From Roseomonas gilardii (GTDB lineage Bacteria; Pseudomonadota; Alphaproteobacteria; Acetobacterales; Acetobacteraceae): 64,000 nucleotides of DNA. The translations under genes and the position numbers were made by a program. Under the pieces are notes generated by a model. The model searched no databases and was not told where the DNA came from. It was given only the letters and a program-made list of their open reading frames with translations. The DNA lies in assembly GCF_001941945.1 (NCBI RefSeq), contig NZ_CP015583.1:733001-797000 (forward strand). The letters are read 5' to 3'. Below are positions 8,847 to 21,610 of the stretch, one piece after another; position 1 is the stretch's first letter, and every line of letters starts with the position of its first letter.

Positions 8847-9601
8847 GCACCGCCGAGTTCCTCGTCGCCGCTGGTCTGGCGGGCCTGCCGCATGGCTTCT
8901 TCACCCGCCGGGGCGGTGTCTCCGAGGGGGCCTTCGCCTCGCTGAACTGCTCGCTCTCTGGCGCCGACGACCCGGCCCGCGTGGCGGAGAACCGCGCCCT
9001 GGCCATGGAGGCACTAGGCCTAGCGCCGGCGGCGCTGGTGGGTCTGCACCAGGTCCATGGCGCCGAGGTGGTGGTGGCACGCGAGCCCTGGTCCGACACG
9101 GCGCGGCCGCGCGCGGATGGCGTGGTGACCGACCGGCCCGAGCTGGCCCTGGGGATCGTCACGGCGGATTGCGGCCCGGTGCTCTTCGCCGATGCCGAGG
9201 CCGGAGTGATCGGCGCCTGCCATGCAGGCTGGCGCGGGGCCGTGGCCGGGATCTGCGAAGCGGTGCTGGAAGCCATGGAGGGAATCGGGGCGAAGCGCGA
9301 GCGTGTCGTGGCCGCGCTGGGCCCCTGCATCCGGCAGGCCTCCTACGAGGTCGGGCGCGATCTCTTCGAGGCCGTGGGCAGGCCGGAATTCTTCCAGCCG
9401 GGTATGCGGGATGGGCACTGGCAGTTCGACATGGCGGGCTATATCGCGGCCCGGCTGCAAGGCGCCGGCACCGGGCTGGTGCAGGTGATCGACGCCGACA
9501 CCCAGGCGGACACCGAACGCTTCTTCTCCCACCGCCGCCGTACCCTGACCGGCGGCGGCCCGATCGGGCACCAGCTCTCGGCCATCGCCCTCCAGGGTTG
9601 A
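8843..9601 (+). CDS. pgeF: peptidoglycan editing factor / multicopper-like purine nucleoside phosphorylase (YfiH, DUF152)
   Basis: 252 residues of the laccase-domain (Cu-oxidase_4) family. E. coli YfiH/PgeF prevents misincorporation of the wrong amino acid in peptidoglycan precursors; homologues show purine nucleoside phosphorylase and adenosine deaminase activity. The metal ligands are visible: His in GLHQVHGAE, Cys in TADCGPVLFAD and His in GACHAGWRGAVAG, followed by GPCIRQASYEVG. The start overlaps the upstream methyltransferase stop (ATGA). A stem-loop followed by a T-rich tract lies 37 bases after the stop. Confidence 0.92.
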   Translation: MSTAEFLVAAGLAGLPHGFFTRRGGVSEGAFASLNCSLSGADDPARVAENRALAMEALGLAPAALVGLHQVHGAEVVVAREPWSDTARPRADGVVTDRPELALGIVTADCGPVLFADAEAGVIGACHAGWRGAVAGICEAVLEAMEGIGAKRERVVAALGPCIRQASYEVGRDLFEAVGRPEFFQPGMRDGHWQFDMAGYIAARLQGAGTGLVQVIDADTQADTERFFSHRRRTLTGGGPIGHQLSAIALQG

Positions 9602-15690: not shown

Positions 15691-16308
15691 ATGACGAAGC
15701 GCGCGGAAAGCAAGTACAAGATCAATCGCCGCCTGGGCGTGAACCTCTGGGGCCGTGCGAAGTCCCCGATCGCCAAGCGCGAGTATGGTCCCGGCCAGCA
15801 TGGCCAGCGCCGCAAGCAGAAGCCGACCGACTTCGGCATCCAGCTGATGGCCAAGCAGAAGCTCAAGGGCTACTACGGCAACATCGGCGAGAAGCAGTTC
15901 CGCAAGTATTACGAGGAGGCCGTGCGCCGTAAGGGCGACACCTCCGAGAACCTGATCGAGCTGCTGGAGCGCCGCCTGGACGCCGTGGTGTACCGCATGA
16001 AGCTGGCGGTGACGCCCTTCGCGGCCCGCCAGTTCGTCAACCACGGCCACCTGCTGGTGAACGGCAAGCGCGTGAACATCCCCTCCTACCTCGTGAAGGA
16101 CGGCGACGTCATCGAGGTGAAGGAGAAGTCCAAGCAGCTCACCGCCGTGCTCGACGCCGCGCAGTCCGGCGAGCGTGACGTGCCGGAGTATGTGCAGATC
16201 GACCACCGCCAGATGAAGGGCTCCTTCATCCGCGCGCCGAAGCTGAGCGATGTGCCGTACCCGGTGCAGATGGAGCCGAACCTGGTCATCGAGTTCTACT
16301 CGCGCTGA
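15691..16308 (+). CDS. rpsD: 30S ribosomal protein S4
   Basis: 205 residues, the usual length. S4 binds 16S rRNA early in 30S assembly. Visible are the N-terminal [19 protein letters not shown], the [17 protein letters not shown] segment, the S4 RNA-binding domain ([15 protein letters not shown] then [20 protein letters not shown]) and the C-terminal LVIEFYSR. Its last codons are part of the 20-bp attachment repeat of the downstream integrative element, which leaves the coding sequence intact. Its original terminator now appears to lie at 21571-21610, beyond the element. Confidence 0.97.
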
Positions 16309-16309
16309 T
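16290..16309 (+). repeat. attL (20-bp direct repeat inside the rpsD 3' end)
   Basis: CGAGTTCTACTCGCGCTGAT, identical to 21523-21542. The bases on either side of the two copies differ, so the repeat is exactly 20 bp. It encodes the final residues EFYSR and the stop of rpsD. Confidence 0.9.
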
Positions 16310-16316
16310 ATTGATG

Positions 16317-16344
16317 AAGGCGGGGCCAAAAACTCCGCCTTTTC
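16317..16344 (+). terminator. element-borne terminator directly after rpsD
   Basis: AAGGCGG pairs with CCGCCTT, followed by a TTT run, 8 bases after the rpsD stop. It lies inside the element, just past attL, and would replace the host terminator that integration displaced. Confidence 0.7.
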
Positions 16345-16376
16345 AATAATTTATCTAAGACAATAAGAGGCGAATC

Positions 16377-16411
16377 CCCCTCACGCCACCCCTCACGGCA
16401 GCCCCCTCACG
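16377..16411 (+). repeat. left arm: three CCCCTCACG direct repeats
   Basis: CCCCTCACG occurs at 16377, 16389 and 16403 (spacings 12 and 14). The same motif with the same spacings occurs at the right end next to the integrase. These are candidate arm-type integrase or excisionase binding sites. The rest of the 300-base stretch between rpsD and the RNase H gene holds no recognisable gene. Confidence 0.7.
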
Positions 16412-16616
16412 GTACTCCCACCCTTTCTTGCGAGAGGGCGGCACCACTACGTGGATGTGAGCGGGCGTTACGGCGGAACCCTGGATCGCATGGCTGGCGG
16501 CGGTCCGGAGATGCAAGCGAGCGGTTGCACCTAAAAACGAAGCACTCCTGCTCCGTCGCAACCGATACAATGCCACGCTACGAACGCGCGGGCGTACACC
16601 CGAAAGACCACATTTG

Positions 16617-17132
16617 ATGCAAGACCGTACCAGCCTCCCCCCGGAGGCCACCACGGCGCATGTCCCCGATTTCGGCGCACCAATCCACGCTTGGTCGGAT
16701 GGGGGATGCCGCCCCAATCCAGGCTTCGGCGCCCATGCCGCCATCGTGGTTCTGCCAAGCGGGAAAGAAGTAACCTTTGAGGGCACCGAGAAAGACTCAA
16801 CAAACAACCGCATGGAGTTGAAGGCGGCTCTAAGTATCCTCCAAGGCGCCAAGCACGCGCGCCACATCATTATCCATACGGACAGCGAGTATCTGTTTCT
16901 AGGCATCACGCAACGGGTGGAGAAATGGAGGACCAAAGGGTGGATCAACAGCGCAAAAGAGCCTGTCGTGAACCGCGACCTGTGGGAAGCAATTCTGGCA
17001 GAGGCAGCCCGTCACCGCGTTGAATGGGTGCTAACACGCGGTCACGCGGATGATGCCATGAACAACCGCGCCGATGCGGCGGTGCAACGGCTGTTGCGGG
17101 CTGCCTCTGCCCCGAAGAAGGGGGCGAAATGA
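16617..17132 (+). CDS. ribonuclease HI (element-borne)
   Basis: 171 residues. RNase HI cleaves the RNA strand of RNA-DNA hybrids. All catalytic carboxylates can be read: Asp28 in WSDGGCRPNPG, Glu67 in NNRMELKAA, Asp89 in HTDSEYL and Asp153 in NNRAD, with the loop His143 in TRGHADD. The ATG at 16617 follows an in-frame TTG. It is probably not the housekeeping copy, because it lies inside the rpsD element and is coupled (4-base overlap) to the ParB-like gene. A role in element replication or R-loop removal is inference. Confidence 0.9.
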   Translation: MQDRTSLPPEATTAHVPDFGAPIHAWSDGGCRPNPGFGAHAAIVVLPSGKEVTFEGTEKDSTNNRMELKAALSILQGAKHARHIIIHTDSEYLFLGITQRVEKWRTKGWINSAKEPVVNRDLWEAILAEAARHRVEWVLTRGHADDAMNNRADAAVQRLLRAASAPKKGAK

Positions 17133-17860
17133 ACCGCCTCCGAGGGAAGTCGCAGGGGGCAGGAGATGCCCCCCAGACGGTGGCGTTAGCGGATATCGTG
17201 GTGATGCCCGCCTATCGCATCCGGGACCGTCTAGACCGGGCTGCCGTAGCGCAATACCGGCAGGCATATGCGCAGGGGGACGTTCTGCCCCCGCTTAGCA
17301 TCGCCCTGGTGGAAGGCGCATTGATCCTGCGGGACGGTTGGCACCGGTTGGAAGCCCTCCGCGAGATCGGCACGCTGCACACGGAAGCCGTCATCTCGGA
17401 GATGTCGGGCAATGAGGCGCGCTGGCAGTCCGGCAAGCTGAACCTCACTCACGGCGTGCGACTTTCGGCGGGCGAGGTGCGGAAGACCTTCAAGGCGTAT
17501 GTGAGGGCCGGGCATCACAAGAGAGGCGCGCGCGGGTTCAAGACGTACCGCGAAATGGCGGCTGACTTCGGAGGGAACGCCACGCGTTCCAGCCTTCACC
17601 GATGGATGCGCGAGGACTTTCCGGCGGTGGCCCGGAAGATCGGCGGCGAAGAAGGAGGAGGAGATGGCAGCTTGAGAGAGCGTAGCCCCGAGGCAGTCTT
17701 AGCGCAGCAGGCGGCGAAGCACCTTGAGGGCGTCGAAGCGGCCATGAAAGGCATCAAGACCCCGCGCTTGCGTGGCGAGGTGCTGGCACGGATGGCGGAG
17801 GCGCAGCGGAAAGCGAGTGTGGCGTGCCCGTGGACACCGGCAGAAGACGAAACCTTCTAG
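17129..17860 (+). CDS. ParB/Spo0J-like nuclease-domain protein
   Basis: 243 residues. The N-terminal part resembles the ParB N-terminal domain: strand VALADIVVMPAYRIRDRLD, then VLPPLSIALVEGALILRDGWHRLEALREIG, where the usual GxHR box appears as DGWHRLEA. Middle residues 125-160 contain a possible DNA-binding helix pair (TYREMAADFGGNATRSSLHRWM). The C-terminus is charged. The start overlaps the RNase H stop (ATGA). No ParA partner is present, so it may be a regulator or CTP-switch protein rather than a partition factor. Confidence 0.72.
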   Translation: MNRLRGKSQGAGDAPQTVALADIVVMPAYRIRDRLDRAAVAQYRQAYAQGDVLPPLSIALVEGALILRDGWHRLEALREIGTLHTEAVISEMSGNEARWQSGKLNLTHGVRLSAGEVRKTFKAYVRAGHHKRGARGFKTYREMAADFGGNATRSSLHRWMREDFPAVARKIGGEEGGGDGSLRERSPEAVLAQQAAKHLEGVEAAMKGIKTPRLRGEVLARMAEAQRKASVACPWTPAEDETF

Positions 17861-18049
17861 CGGGAGAGCTAACGCACTGTTTCTGCTGCTGAAATGAGAC
17901 ATCCTGTCCCAATAGGACATGTCTAGGCAACGGCAAGGGCGCTAAACCGCTGACTTAGAACGCGTATTTAACGAGAAACGCGCCACCTCGAAAATGGGGA
18001 TGGGGCCGATGCGACGCGGCCCCGCCTCCCGCCCGTGGCGGATACTGGA

Positions 18050-18466
18050 TCAGGAAGACGCGGGGGCCGCATCTCCGTGCCCCTGGCGCAGAGCACGAAT
18101 TTCAGCAGGTGTGCTGCGGACCCACTCACCGGGGCGCGCAAAGACTTCCCCAATGAAGGGTGCGCGTAGCCAAAGGTTGAAGTGACTTGTGGAAGCGTAT
18201 GCCTCCACCTCGAAAGAGCGACCCAGGGTGAACTTGAAGGACGGGATGATGGTCACGGCGTCTGCAACTTTTGGTTGTCGTTCCGGCAGAGAATCACTCA
18301 CGGAATCGTGCGTCAAGAGTGCGTCGGGGTGGTCCGGATAGTTTTGGCGCAAAAATCTGACGGGGCATCCAATAATCGGAGTGCACTCGTTTCCCCCCGC
18401 ACTTCCCCCTGGGAACCCTTGAGGCCAGCCGAAGGGGCCGCGAGAACGGGAGCAGCCTCGCCTCAT
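18050..18466 (-). CDS. hypothetical protein within the element
   Basis: Up to 138 residues, of which the last 90 look coding (strand-rich DAVTIIPSFKFTLGRSFEVE, then FNLWLRAPFIGEVF and a charged tail). The start is uncertain; the first 40 residues are Gly/Arg-rich and may not be translated. No family recognised. It faces the antirepressor remnant, and their 5' ends meet at 18465. The preceding stretch 17861-18049 shows no gene. Confidence 0.42.
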   Translation of the reverse strand: MRRGCSRSRGPFGWPQGFPGGSAGGNECTPIIGCPVRFLRQNYPDHPDALLTHDSVSDSLPERQPKVADAVTIIPSFKFTLGRSFEVEAYASTSHFNLWLRAPFIGEVFARPGEWVRSTPAEIRALRQGHGDAAPASS

Positions 18467-18933
18467 GGCCGCCCCACCCCCCCGCCATCTTCACCTTCCC
18501 CGAAACGCAGCAGACGATCCGCACGGTGTCCCTCGACGGGGCGCCGTGGTTCGTGGCGGGAGATGTAACGCGATGCCTCGGGCTTGTGCGGGGCGGCACC
18601 ACACTATCCCCGCTGTGTGCTACGGAACGTCGCGTTATCCGTAAGTGGGGCCAGACCCCACTTAAGGGACAGGGCCTCGCCCTCATCTCCGAGAGCGGCC
18701 TCTACAAGCTCATCATGCGCTCCGACAAACCCCAGGCGCGCGCCTTCCAAGATTGGGTGACGCGCGACGTGCTCCCCGCGATCCGGAAAGACGGGATGTA
18801 CGTGATGGGCGAGGAGAAGGTGCGCTCCGGATATGCCTGCAGGGAGCATCTGCCAATCACTAGGGCCTGCCCATATGATTCGGTATGGAGGGAACGATTG
18901 ATCGGATCACTAGCATTGTCTTTTGAGTTTTGA
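18465..18933 (+). pseudogene. BRO-N phage antirepressor, frameshifted and C-terminally short
   Basis: The BRO-N domain is clear from IFTFPETQQTIRTVSLDG through APWFVAGDVTRCLGL to RDVLPAIRKDGMYVMGEEK. The best start, ATG at 18465, reads MAAPPP and then leaves the domain frame at a run of seven C (18477-18483). With six C the frame continues as MAAPPPAIFTFPETQQ. The only in-frame alternative, GTG at 18526, would lack the first strand. After the domain the protein ends within about 40 unrelated residues, with no KilA-C domain. Either a decayed gene, a slippage-controlled gene or a base error. Confidence 0.62.
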
Positions 18934-18980
18934 TGCGAATAGATCGCTGCATCTAGGATGTTGTGATCGGATATCGCGCC

Positions 18981-19550
18981 ATGATCGTTGGCTACGCCCG
19001 CACCTCCACCGCCGAACAAGACGCCGGTCTAGAAGCCCAGGAACGCGACCTCCGCGCCGCTGGGTGCGAGCGGCTGTTCTCCGAGAAGGTATCCTCGGGG
19101 GCAAAGCGGGATCGGCTGGAGGAGGCCGTACGCTTCATCCGCGAGGGGGATGTGCTGGTGGTCACGAAGCCGGATCGCTTGGCCCGCTCCACCGCCGACC
19201 TACTGACCATCGTGGAACAGCTTGAGGCCCGCAAGGTGGCGCTGCGCGTCCTCTCCATGGGCGGGCAGGAGGTGGACACCCGCAGCCCTACAGGGCGGCT
19301 CATGCTGACAATGCTGGGCGCCGTGGCCGAGTTCGAGCGCGCCTTGATGCTGGAACGCCAGCGGGAGGGCGTGGCCGCTGCCAAGGCCGAGGGAAAGTAC
19401 AAGGGCCGCGCCCCGACTGCCCGCGCCAAGAGCGCCGAGGTGTTAGCCCTTCATGCCCAAGGGGTGGCGGCGGCCGAGGTCGCACGGCGTGTGGGGATCG
19501 GCGTGGCGTCGGTCTTTCGTATCCTCCGGGACCAGCGGGAAGCAGCGTAG
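18981..19550 (+). CDS. small serine recombinase (resolvase/invertase family)
   Basis: 189 residues. Catalytic Ser9 in MIVGYARTSTAEQD, with the arginine-rich active-site segment KPDRLARST near residues 63-71 and the E-helix region RLMLTMLGAVAEFER. A C-terminal helix-turn-helix (AAEVARRVGIGVASVFRILRD) would bind res-like sites. The ATG at 18981 is chosen because it places Tyr-Ala-Arg-Thr-Ser at the usual position. It may resolve multimers or invert a segment; a second recombinase beside the tyrosine integrase is notable. Confidence 0.92.
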   Translation: MIVGYARTSTAEQDAGLEAQERDLRAAGCERLFSEKVSSGAKRDRLEEAVRFIREGDVLVVTKPDRLARSTADLLTIVEQLEARKVALRVLSMGGQEVDTRSPTGRLMLTMLGAVAEFERALMLERQREGVAAAKAEGKYKGRAPTARAKSAEVLALHAQGVAAAEVARRVGIGVASVFRILRDQREAA

Positions 19551-19675
19551 CGGCAGGGACGTGCCTTCGATCCCCTGCGTTTTTCCCTGCCCCCCCTCGG
19601 CCTTACGAAATGGCAACGTTCTTGACACAACCTTGAATTGTATAGAGCCTGCCGAAGCAATCCTAGGAGGACATT

Positions 19676-20008
19676 ATGGGGGCGGTGGGCGGTGTGTTTG
19701 GTCTCGTGATATGGATTGTTTTAGTTCTTGCCCAAGGGGCGGCCTTTTTCGAGGGGCTTGAGTTGTGGTGGGGAACTACTGGGTTCCTTGCATTCGGTGT
19801 CTTCGTAGTGGCAATCCTATTCAGGCCGCTTGGAACCCTATTCCTCTCTTGCGTAGCCTTTTACGGCATGTGGAAGGGCTGGCATTGGCCCTTCCTGGGC
19901 GCTGTGGCAGCGGCTTTCCCGGCTGTCCTTATGGCTTTTGTCGGGGCAGGAGGAGCGGGCATCCTGGCCCTTTTCGAGCGCATAAAGTCCGGGCTGCGAG
20001 CGACATAG
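19676..20008 (+). CDS. small integral membrane protein in element
   Basis: 110 residues with about four hydrophobic segments (residues 5-25, 35-52, 53-70, 75-97) and a basic C-terminus. A strong ribosome-binding site AGGAGG lies 5-6 bases before the ATG, supporting expression. No family recognised; element-borne membrane proteins can act in exclusion or as toxins, but nothing in the sequence shows this. Confidence 0.65.
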   Translation: MGAVGGVFGLVIWIVLVLAQGAAFFEGLELWWGTTGFLAFGVFVVAILFRPLGTLFLSCVAFYGMWKGWHWPFLGAVAAAFPAVLMAFVGAGGAGILALFERIKSGLRAT

Positions 20009-20037
20009 CGCTTCGAACAGCAGTGGCGCGGCGCCAA

Positions 20038-21432
20038 TTAACCAAGAGCAGGCAGCCTCACCGCCTCCACACATTCCCGTAGCGCTGTCACGAGGTCGCC
20101 ACCGAAGTAAACACCGAGCGTCACGTCTGCCTTCGGCAGCTTGTGCCCTACAACCTGCTTCACCACCCGTTCCGGCCGGTTGGCCCGCAGGGCTTCGGTG
20201 ATGAACCACCGCCGCCACGAGTGAAAGTTGACGCGCGACCGGCGCTGTCCTTCCGCTTTCTCATGCACTTTGAGTTTCACCCGAAAATTGTGGAAGCGGG
20301 CTGTGGCGTTGGTTGACCGCTTCCCGAATCGATTCGGTTCCCCGAATTCCGGAAACAACCACGTTGCCGCATCCTGGCCGCCGATCCGCCGTGCTACGAT
20401 GGCGGCAAGATCAGGATGGATTGGGACCCTTCGGGTGGCTGCTGCGGTCTTCCCTCCACGCACGGTGAAGACATCCCCCTGACAGTGCCCAACGGTAAGC
20501 TGGCAAATCTCCTCCACCCGCATCCCACTTAGCGCTGCGACGCGCATGAGATCGGCCAAGCCGTCATCTGGAGCGTGCGCCAGGAGCGTTTGAACCTCTT
20601 TGGTGGTGAAGGCGCGTTCACTCTCCTCCCCATCCTGCACCACCTCGCGGGGCTTGGAGGGCGCTTGCCGGGGCCACGGGTTTGCTCCTTCAGCCACGAT
20701 GCCGCGCCGCTCCATCCATTGCCAGTAGCCGGAGAGAGCGGAAGCAATGTCGCGGATGCGCGCCGCGCTCCGGCCCTTGTCATGGAGGGCAGTGACGTAC
20801 TGCCCGGCAACGCGGCGGGTGATGCGCTCCACGCCGGAAGGGAAGCCGCTGCTATCCAGCCAAGCGCCCAAGGCCGCCACGTCGCTCCGGTACTGCGCCT
20901 TGGTGCGCTCGTGGCGCTGCCGCCCGCGTGGCCCCGGCTGCGCCAGCCAAGTTTCCATGTGGTGGGGCAAGGGGGTAGTCCGGCCCAGGGCGAGGTCCAC
21001 AAAGTTCTCCGCGCGCTCCCACCCCTCACGACGCCCGATCTCATCATGCCGGGCCGCTACGGTGTCCGTGAGAACATCTGCGGCAAGCTCAGTGTCGGAG
21101 AGTTCCACCCGGCCTCCTTCGGCATCATCTCGAAAGACGTAGGCAGGGCGCCCGGAGGGATCACGGCGGAGGCTATCCAGATTGGCCCGGATCGCCAGCG
21201 CCTCCGCAGTGACGGGATCGGTGGCGGGGCTGCCGCGCCGTGCTGCGTCAATGCGCGCGTGGAGCGTCAGCAAAGCCGCCGCCAGTCGTGCCTTCGCCAC
21301 ATGCTTGTCGCGGGTGCCAAGCCCTTTCCGCAGCCGCTTCCGGCCCACCACAGCCTGTAGCGAAGGAGGAACGTCCACCACCGCCTCCCAGCTTTGGCGG
21401 CGCTGCTCAAGGTATCCAGAAACCTTCGCCAC
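20038..21432 (-). CDS. tyrosine-family integrase of the rpsD element
   Basis: 464 residues. The catalytic set is readable: Arg near 299 in LSGMRVEEI, His-x-x-Arg near 405-408 in FHSWRRWF, His near 429 in VGHKLPKA and Tyr near 441 in LGVYFGG. The middle shows a SAM-like core-binding domain (residues about 150-250), preceded by an N-terminal arm-binding region. The GTG start at 21432 lies on the first right-arm repeat and reads away from attR into the element. It should recombine the 20-bp rpsD repeat; location of the arm repeats over its start suggests self-control. Confidence 0.93.
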   Translation of the reverse strand: MAKVSGYLEQRRQSWEAVVDVPPSLQAVVGRKRLRKGLGTRDKHVAKARLAAALLTLHARIDAARRGSPATDPVTAEALAIRANLDSLRRDPSGRPAYVFRDDAEGGRVELSDTELAADVLTDTVAARHDEIGRREGWERAENFVDLALGRTTPLPHHMETWLAQPGPRGRQRHERTKAQYRSDVAALGAWLDSSGFPSGVERITRRVAGQYVTALHDKGRSAARIRDIASALSGYWQWMERRGIVAEGANPWPRQAPSKPREVVQDGEESERAFTTKEVQTLLAHAPDDGLADLMRVAALSGMRVEEICQLTVGHCQGDVFTVRGGKTAAATRRVPIHPDLAAIVARRIGGQDAATWLFPEFGEPNRFGKRSTNATARFHNFRVKLKVHEKAEGQRRSRVNFHSWRRWFITEALRANRPERVVKQVVGHKLPKADVTLGVYFGGDLVTALRECVEAVRLPALG

Positions 21433-21466
21433 CCCTCGCGGCTCCCCTCACGTTTCACCCCTCACG
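21432..21466 (+). repeat. right arm: three CCCCTCACG-type direct repeats
   Basis: CCCCTCGCG at 21432, CCCCTCACG at 21444 and CCCCTCACG at 21458: the same orientation and the same 12- and 14-base spacings as the left arm at 16377-16411. The first overlaps the integrase start codon. About 57 bases separate the last repeat from attR. Confidence 0.7.
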
Positions 21467-21522
21467 ATGGCTATGAAGCGAAGCGAAAGCAATAGCTTCA
21501 GTATGTTGGGCGGATGGAGTGG

Positions 21523-21542
21523 CGAGTTCTACTCGCGCTGAT
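21523..21542 (+). repeat. attR (20-bp direct repeat)
   Basis: Identical copy of the rpsD-end sequence at 16290-16309. What follows it (from 21543) should be the ancestral rpsD downstream DNA. Confidence 0.9.
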
Positions 21543-21570
21543 CCTGCGGCCCCTTCCGGGACCCTGTCGA

Positions 21571-21610
21571 ACGCCGCCCCTGGGGACGAACCCCCGGGGG
21601 CGGCGTTTCT
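21571..21610 (+). terminator. ancestral rpsD terminator, displaced by the element
   Basis: ACGCCGCCCC pairs perfectly with GGGGCGGCGT (21597-21606), followed by TTCT. It stands 28 bases after attR with no gene of its own immediately upstream, so before integration it would have followed rpsD directly. Confidence 0.7.

Follow-up and report, generated by a model that had tools for sequence, protein, structure and literature searches.

Integration of genomic islands in rpsD, the gene encoding ribosomal protein S4, has been described for Streptococcus agalactiae, in which SagCI and the phage-inducible chromosomal islands (PICI) PICI1-3 use this target and in which SagCI sits at the 3' end of the gene, leaving it unimpeded, according to the accessible parts of the reports (PMC4129442, PMC7487436, PMC9504112). 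Here we describe an element with the same target in an alphaproteobacterium, Roseomonas gilardii. It occupies positions 16310-21542 of a stretch of 64,000 nucleotides (NZ_CP015583.1, 733,001-797,000; hereafter the window, meaning the whole stretch that was analysed), which lies on contig C1 of a genome of 5.4 Mb in 5 contigs. We consider it probable (about 80%) that this element is a compact integrative island, for which a DUF6538-type tyrosine integrase joined the attP site of a circular form to an attB site at the end of rpsD. A preliminary description of the locus had called an rpsD target rarely noted, which is fair, but the target had already been published for the streptococcal islands, as far as the accessible text of those reports shows.

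The rpsD target is common to both groups, yet the streptococcal islands stem from Firmicutes. According to the same partial sources, PICI1 and PICI2 are about 15 kb long and contain a DNA primase and PICI3 measures 13.7 kb, whereas the window element measures 5.2 kb and no primase was recognised in it. It differs further in combining a DUF6538 integrase with a serine recombinase; the integrases of the two groups were not compared directly. In the open-licence PMC literature searched we found neither another case of rpsD targeting by an island outside S. agalactiae, nor a description of this two-recombinase anatomy, nor a paper naming the domain DUF6538. The integrase of Salmonella genomic island 1 (SGI1) is likewise a tyrosine integrase. 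In the accessible part of its description (PMC12217951), SGI1 has a Tn3-like resolvase with a resolution site (res) upstream that frequently carries an insertion; in SGI1 this lies 71 bp upstream of the res gene and disrupts resolution, and once the system is restored, multimers are eliminated. The window element shares with it the insertion at the 3' end of a conserved gene and the Tn3-like resolvase, and differs in target (rpsD instead of trmE); SGI1, which IncA/IncC plasmids mobilise, is also much longer. Islands linked to tmRNA genes (I55 type) share an integrase, direct repeats, cargo and a lack of recognised genes for autonomous transfer, and differ in target and in their defence cargo; the accessible part of their description does not mention a resolvase (PMC12595487). 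The two-handed integrases of the lambda type, as portrayed in the accessible part of PMC8138268, share with the window integrase the catalytic residues, the core-binding domain, an extra N-terminal domain and repeats on both arms. The window integrase differs from them in its DUF6538 N-terminus and in having three repeats of the same orientation per arm, with a fixed span of 26 nt.

The preliminary description had listed no structural or conjugation genes in the cargo, and this agrees with our scans: the 7 window proteins that were compared to Pfam and PHROGs yielded no match to a relaxase, coupling protein, primase, packaging protein, capsid or other virion structural protein. The element thus lacks the primase and packaging-interference matches of a PICI, besides being only 5.2 kb long, and lacks in the scanned proteins the relaxase or secretion match of an integrative conjugative or mobilizable element and the virion structural match of a prophage. 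It has what is expected of an island inserting at the 3' end of a gene: a repeat equal to that 3' end, a restored target and empty sites in relatives. As to resolution of the Tn3 type, it encodes a serine recombinase with catalytic and helix-turn-helix domains, and no upstream res was found in the window.

Insertion at the 3' end of rpsD

The target gene (15691-16308, plus strand) is intact; all 14 further genomes of the genus have it at 98-89% identity. The claim that the element is bordered by 20-bp direct repeats made of the last rpsD codons was borne out: CGAGTTCTACTCGCGCTGAT occurs in two exact copies on the plus strand, attL at 16290-16309 and attR at 21523-21542. The left copy encodes the final codons and the stop, to which rpsD stays in frame, and includes an inverted repeat (CGAGT-TCT-ACTCG, by eye). 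A degenerate 18-base site pattern, GAGTTCTACTCNCGCTRA, occurs only twice genome-wide, namely at the two att copies. Within the family Acetobacteraceae 189/397 genomes contain the exact rpsD site pattern, and because the site is conserved to this extent the integrase might become a genetic tool for these bacteria. As read from the table, four family genomes have more than one copy of the pattern: the window genome, a genome of another genus (G177, see below) and two members of the window genus with tandem copies (G001 and G013).

The genus sample consisted of 15 genomes, one per species, and rpsD was located in all. In 14/14 other genomes a homologue of the gene beyond the right repeat begins 62-225 bp after rpsD (52-98% protein identity), and all 14 thus have an empty rpsD site. 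The att repeats and the empty sites together uphold the earlier proposal of an element that integrates site-specifically into the 3' end of rpsD. An integrase relative (at 1e-20) was found in just one of these 14 genomes (G004), as a relic at another location.

Insertion has displaced the original rpsD terminator, found by fold and consensus scan at 21569-21608 (plus strand), by 5.2 kb; a hairpin sequence resembling it occurs 3' of rpsD in two empty sites (L012 and L013, by eye). Just inside attL the element has a hairpin followed by TTTT (about 16309-16348, plus strand). The fold of 16300-16350 reaches -20.3 kcal/mol (z -4.1), which was equalled by 0/200 shuffles; the hairpin is absent from the output of the terminator consensus scan. 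It is likely that the element thereby brings a replacement terminator for rpsD, and such a substitution would imply a low cost of the insertion for the host. This hairpin inside attL, as well as the triplets discussed below, were not part of the preliminary description.

A second element at the same rpsD codons was found in G177. Its repeats (L076:3633-3652 and 9134-9153) are 5501 bp apart, and its proteins are related to those of the window element: the integrase is 57%, the resolvase 70% and the ParB-like protein 35% identical, and no match to the window RNase H was found in it. The identical block stops before the stop codon, with TAA at attL and TGA at attR, and the element hence supplies the stop codon (TAA) of rpsD. 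The hairpin region inside its attL is weaker (z -1.9, equalled by 10/200 shuffles). None of the four congeners of G177 has this element directly after rpsD, though their empty sites are less clear than those in the window genus: the next gene lies within 100 bp in 2/4, a partial match is 1.1 kb off in one, and one contig ends at 665 bp.

The integrase and its putative arm-type sites

The tyrosine integrase that had been noted beside the right repeat is indeed intact (20038-21432, minus strand). Pfam recognises in it an N-terminal DUF6538, a SAM-like core-binding domain and the catalytic domain (PF00589). R305, K328, H404, R407, H430 and Y442, which we take to be the catalytic R, K, H, R, H and the tyrosine nucleophile, are invariant in alignments of 8 and of 15 integrases. 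DUF6538 was found in all of the 15 aligned sequences, among which the two broken integrases, of G318 and G004, were not included. The AlphaFold model (pLDDT 76.8, pTM 0.43) matches the structures of lambda Int, Tn1549 Int and Xer.

A block of 35 nt with three direct repeats lies inside each att site in the same orientation, at a distance of about 67 bp from attL and of about 56 bp from attR. The left triplet (16377-16411, plus strand) consists of CCCCTCACG three times, with spacings of 12 and 14, and scores 27 of 27. The right triplet (21432-21466, plus strand; CCCCTCGCG/CCCCTCACG/CCCCTCACG, spacings 12 and 14) reaches the start of the integrase gene and scores 26 of 27. In the test that we used (span 26 nt, spacing 12/14 or 13/13), a triplet scoring at least 23 of 27 is present at the integrase start in 13/17 family loci, the window included, irrespective of whether the target is tRNA-Ser, tRNA-Glu, a thioesterase gene or rpsD. 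In 10/17 each end has a triplet, the two being oriented alike: the window, G177, G328, G068, G031, G099, G214, G396 and G112, for which the far triplet had to reach 20 of 27, and G004, which was delimited separately. A score of 23 was reached by 8/1000 random stretches, which were drawn from the same loci with the triplets themselves included. The repeated unit differs between members: it is CCCCCACA in the relatives at tRNA-Glu and of the type CCCCTCAC, resembling that of the window, in the G004 relic at tRNA-Ser. These triplets are probable arm-type sites, and we infer that they are bound by the N-terminal DUF6538, a role that the position of the domain and the repeats suggest; the integrase would then act two-handed, in the lambda manner.

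Six more distant integrases, from Devosia and Methylobacteriaceae, have a triplet score that never exceeds 17. At three Devosia loci (L007, L008 and L010), with integrases of about 30% identity, we observed triplets of a GTACCCC type with 12/13 spacing, not significant in the span-26 test. They hint that the rule of triple arm sites may extend beyond the Acetobacteraceae.

The serine recombinase

The small serine recombinase of the window element (18981-19550, plus strand, in an open frame that begins at 18963) has a PF00239 domain (4e-43) and an HTH_7 domain (6e-7). A PF00239 match lies on the downstream side of the integrase, within about 12 kb, in 14/17 family loci, the misses being G206 and G239 (contig end within 0.8 kb) and G318 (integrase with internal stop), and a serine recombinase lies between the triplets in 10/10 of the two-ended elements. 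We take this Pfam count as the independent one, since the resolvase profile that was also searched with had been seeded by 9 of its own 13 loci. As background, the 17 genomes contain 116 PF00239 matches, about 1.3 per Mb (with rounded genome sizes), and in the window genome 1/17 other PF00589 places has one within 13 kb. A serine recombinase thus regularly accompanies the integrase, even in islands of 4-5 kb.

For res we compared the upstream regions of 12 of the 14 serine recombinases, L086 and L087 being left out and the resolvase start of L076 being off by 2 bases. An inverted pair of half-sites of exactly 34 bp, as in a Tn3-type res subsite, occurs in 5/12 of the regions. Pairs of other sizes are 30 bp (also in L081) and 26 and 37 bp (in L088), and 6/12 regions, the window included, have no pair. 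Among random stretches, 50/3000 hold any pair of 26-38 bp. A scan for single 12-mer half-sites was discarded in favour of this paired test because it was hardly enriched, with 31 hits against 16-30 in shuffles. The window has a lone half-site at 17905-17916, on the strand opposite to its resolvase gene, which resembles the last half-site before the resolvase genes of the relatives and is separated from the window resolvase by the Bro-N remnant. The res of the window copy is probably non-functional. By analogy to SGI1, control of multimers is the likely role of the enzyme.

An island family with changing targets

Relatives of the integrase (at 1e-30) are present in at least 17/397 family genomes, the window included, and all 17 surroundings were compared. 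No relative at 1e-50 was found in the other 384 genomes of the class; up to four candidates were scored per genome in both searches and these counts may be low. The Devosia and Methylobacteriaceae relatives have integrases of 29-37% identity. A phage origin of the integrase was considered and rejected, there being 0 matches in 50,697 phage records. In IMG/VR, 2 stretches match a peptide pattern, 1 of which encodes a relative, and the att pattern is absent. Carriage by plasmids was also rejected: 16 records were retrieved, all below 60% identity, of which one covers at least 80% of the query.

The two-ended elements are about 4.3 kb (G396, G112), 4.9-5.6 kb (G214, G031, window, G177, G068), 7.7 kb (G328), 10.3 kb (G099) and 13.5 kb (G004) long. 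Targets were assigned for all loci except G072, G081, G239 and G318. Besides rpsD in the window and G177, they comprise: tRNA-Ser(GCT) in G328 (18-bp repeat) and G004 (repeated 3' end); a tRNA-Glu gene adjoining the far triplet in G031 (14-bp repeat), G396 and G112; a tRNA-Glu-like 3' end in G099 (21-bp repeat, no gene called by ARAGORN); ends resembling tRNA-Ser (by eye) next to the integrase in G282 and G387, and in G068 (14-bp repeat, no tRNA gene called); and the initial part of a thioesterase-like gene (4HBT_2) in G214 (L083, imperfect repeat), to which the right end, the only one available, of G206 (L084) is similar. The G214 and G206 integrases at this thioesterase-like gene are sisters (99/99), and insertion at the 5' end of the gene might swap the N-terminus of the protein.

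In the integrase tree, from which G318 and the G004 relic were omitted, the two rpsD sequences pair with each other (88/72, a moderate value); the tRNA-Ser integrase of G328 is their nearest neighbour (99/98), and the G072 integrase branches off next (100/99). The suggestion that there might be a clade of integrases always found beside rpsD therefore holds for this pair, but the pair is nested among integrases of tRNA and other sites; an rpsD-only clade was rejected, with just 2/17 loci at rpsD. The triplets of the G004 relic, at tRNA-Ser, are like those of the window; like arm sites thus accompanied the change of target. On these sequence comparisons, rpsD is apparently a target switch inside a family of compact integrase-plus-resolvase islands of about 4.3-13.5 kb. 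This makes it a delimited system, in which the target has moved between a tRNA and a protein-coding gene while similar arm triplets were kept, and the basis of target choice is therefore testable among integrases of 49-57% identity.

Proposed mechanism of integration and alternative explanations

In the mechanism that we propose, attB would consist of the last six codons of rpsD and attP would lie on a circular form of the element. The N-terminal DUF6538 domain would hold the triplet arm sites during a two-handed integration of the lambda type, and the hairpin of the element would take over from the displaced rpsD terminator. The serine recombinase probably resolves tandem or multimeric copies into monomers, as its counterpart does in SGI1, and the intercellular route would have to depend on outside machinery: a helper phage, a conjugative element, transduction or DNA uptake.

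Several results weigh against this mechanism. The structure matches mostly cover residues 151-435 and hardly probe the N-terminal domain, and an arm-binding role of DUF6538 therefore leans on its position and on the triplets. L086 breaks the 12/14 or 13/13 spacing rule (score 14; best fit 14/14), and the triplets at L080 (19), L082 (21) and L085 (21) are weak. The 34-bp half-site pair is missing in 7/12 upstream regions, and the window resolvase has no res pair upstream in the paired-site test. Finally, an excisionase gene was not recognised in the element, and neither a circular form nor excision was observed in a sample of one genome per species.

A rival reading is an immobile relic, in which the repeats are genuine, the element is dead and the features shared by the family are merely inherited. 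In its favour, the antirepressor gene is broken, the resolvase is without its res pair, and two relatives, G318 (internal stop) and G004 (an insertion sequence interrupts the integrase), look dead. We consider this unlikely in view of the intact integrase frame with its catalytic residues, the exact att repeats, the presence of both triplets and the 14 empty sites. Decay of a larger element, a prophage of which the RNase HI gene, the antirepressor remnant and the ParB-like gene would be the last phage genes, appears very improbable. The Bro-N, RNase H and ParB-like proteins do match phage families, and in the 13.5-kb island of G004 a broken integrase lies beside Bro-N, RNase H and a protein with a transglycosylase domain. 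Nevertheless, 7/10 two-ended elements, in which both triplets, the integrase and the serine recombinase are present, measure just about 4.3-5.6 kb, the scanned cargo proteins (for the relatives a part of the open frames) did not match a capsid, portal or terminase, the integrase is unmatched in the phage records, and the rpsD sister element in G177 is without a match to the window RNase H.

The other two alternatives concern the way in which a compact island would move. Excision upon helper infection and packaging by the helper, as in the PICIs or the islands linked to tmRNA and jumbo phages, is possible, and we hold it tentatively. It would suit an element with an antirepressor-type remnant and phage-type genes in which no transfer genes of its own were recognised, and PICIs of S. 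agalactiae integrate in rpsD (PMC4129442, PMC7487436, PMC9504112, in part). Jumbo phages can moreover move islands of an integrase and cargo without recognised transfer genes, as the accessible part of PMC12595487 has it. The window element is, however, without a match to a small terminase, a capsid-size factor or a primase, no relative was found in the phage records and the att pattern is not in IMG/VR. More doubtful is an integrative mobilizable element, the circular form of which would be nicked at an origin of transfer by a co-resident conjugative element, as for SGI1. The pairing of an integrase with a Tn3-like resolvase recalls SGI1 (PMC12217951, in part) and the target is again the 3' end of a conserved gene; yet SGI1 is much larger, at 42.4 kb (PMC3285670, in part), and no relaxase or coupling protein was recognised among the scanned window proteins, the origin of transfer not having been searched for.

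Of the two options in the preliminary description, a satellite or a compact island of undescribed type, the latter gains support from the finding of a family whose members have their anatomy in common; no positive evidence for a satellite was obtained. More speculatively, the compact islands might form a minimal, hitherto undescribed class of mobile elements in the Acetobacteraceae, for which 'Int-Res islands' would be a suitable name: about 5 kb in size, with a two-handed DUF6538 integrase, fixed triple arm sites and Tn3-like resolution. They would pass through a circular stage like that of a plasmid (resolvase, ParB-like and AAA_25 helicase-type genes, depending on the member), would have exchanged tRNA genes for protein-coding targets (rpsD, thioesterase) with similar arm sites retained, and would have left att scars in tandem after rpsD in sister species. 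We put this forward with considerable reserve.

Cargo genes and tandem copies of the rpsD end

The cargo labels of the preliminary description were partly confirmed, as Pfam recognised the RNase H, resolvase and Bro-N domains. On the plus strand, the element encodes in addition to the serine recombinase: RNase HI (16617-17132; PF00075, 1.4e-29), a ParB-like protein (17129-17860), a BRO/antirepressor remnant of which only Bro-N is left (18526-18933; PF02498, 7.4e-16; phrog_130) and a small protein of unassigned function, membrane-like by eye (19676-20008; phrog_3075, of unknown function, 4.4e-4). The ParB-like label derives from PHROGs (phrog_1033, 3.5e-8), without a Pfam match; homologues are found in the G177 element (35% identity) and at the G072 locus (38%). 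The N-terminal codons of the Bro-N remnant are in a different frame (by eye). PADLOC assigned no part of the window element to a defence model.

Copies of the rpsD end were seen after rpsD in some genomes of the genus with no element between them. In G001 (L023, about 2099-2240) rpsD is followed by four tandem 27-bp units, of which two have TAA and two TGA, and by a fifth that has decayed. Two tandem copies directly follow rpsD in G013 (L019), and weaker traces (6 of 20 mismatches) are found in G010 (L018) and G008 (L021). Such copies thus occur in 2/14 other genus genomes at ≤1 mismatch and in 4/14 at ≤6, compared to 0/37 other rpsD ends (G068 entered twice); among control genes, copies of the 3' end were found for 0/123 at ≤4 mismatches and 3/123 at ≤6. 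The tandem copies are either scars of past integrations or the result of slippage.

The related islands differ in cargo, according to scans that covered part of their open frames. The G318 element (L080), with an internal stop in its integrase, a weak triplet and no resolvase nearby, is probably a dead member of the family. The island of G004 spans L091:6053-17001 and L101:1-2669, and its integrase is split by an insertion sequence (with an ALIL pseudoknot). Its cargo includes RNase H, a resolvase, two Bro-N genes (the first recognised by Pfam, the other by eye) and a 793-aa transglycosylase-domain protein (SLT, 3.5e-5), which also matches a tail protein weakly (2.7e-4). The PD-T7-4 defence model is weakly matched in this island, too (2.1e-6). 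An Abi_alpha protein is encoded in G328. The islands of G031 and G099 contain AAA_25 ATPases (L081:8297-9391 and L082:11595-12617) that match phage helicase/primase families and are possible replication genes.

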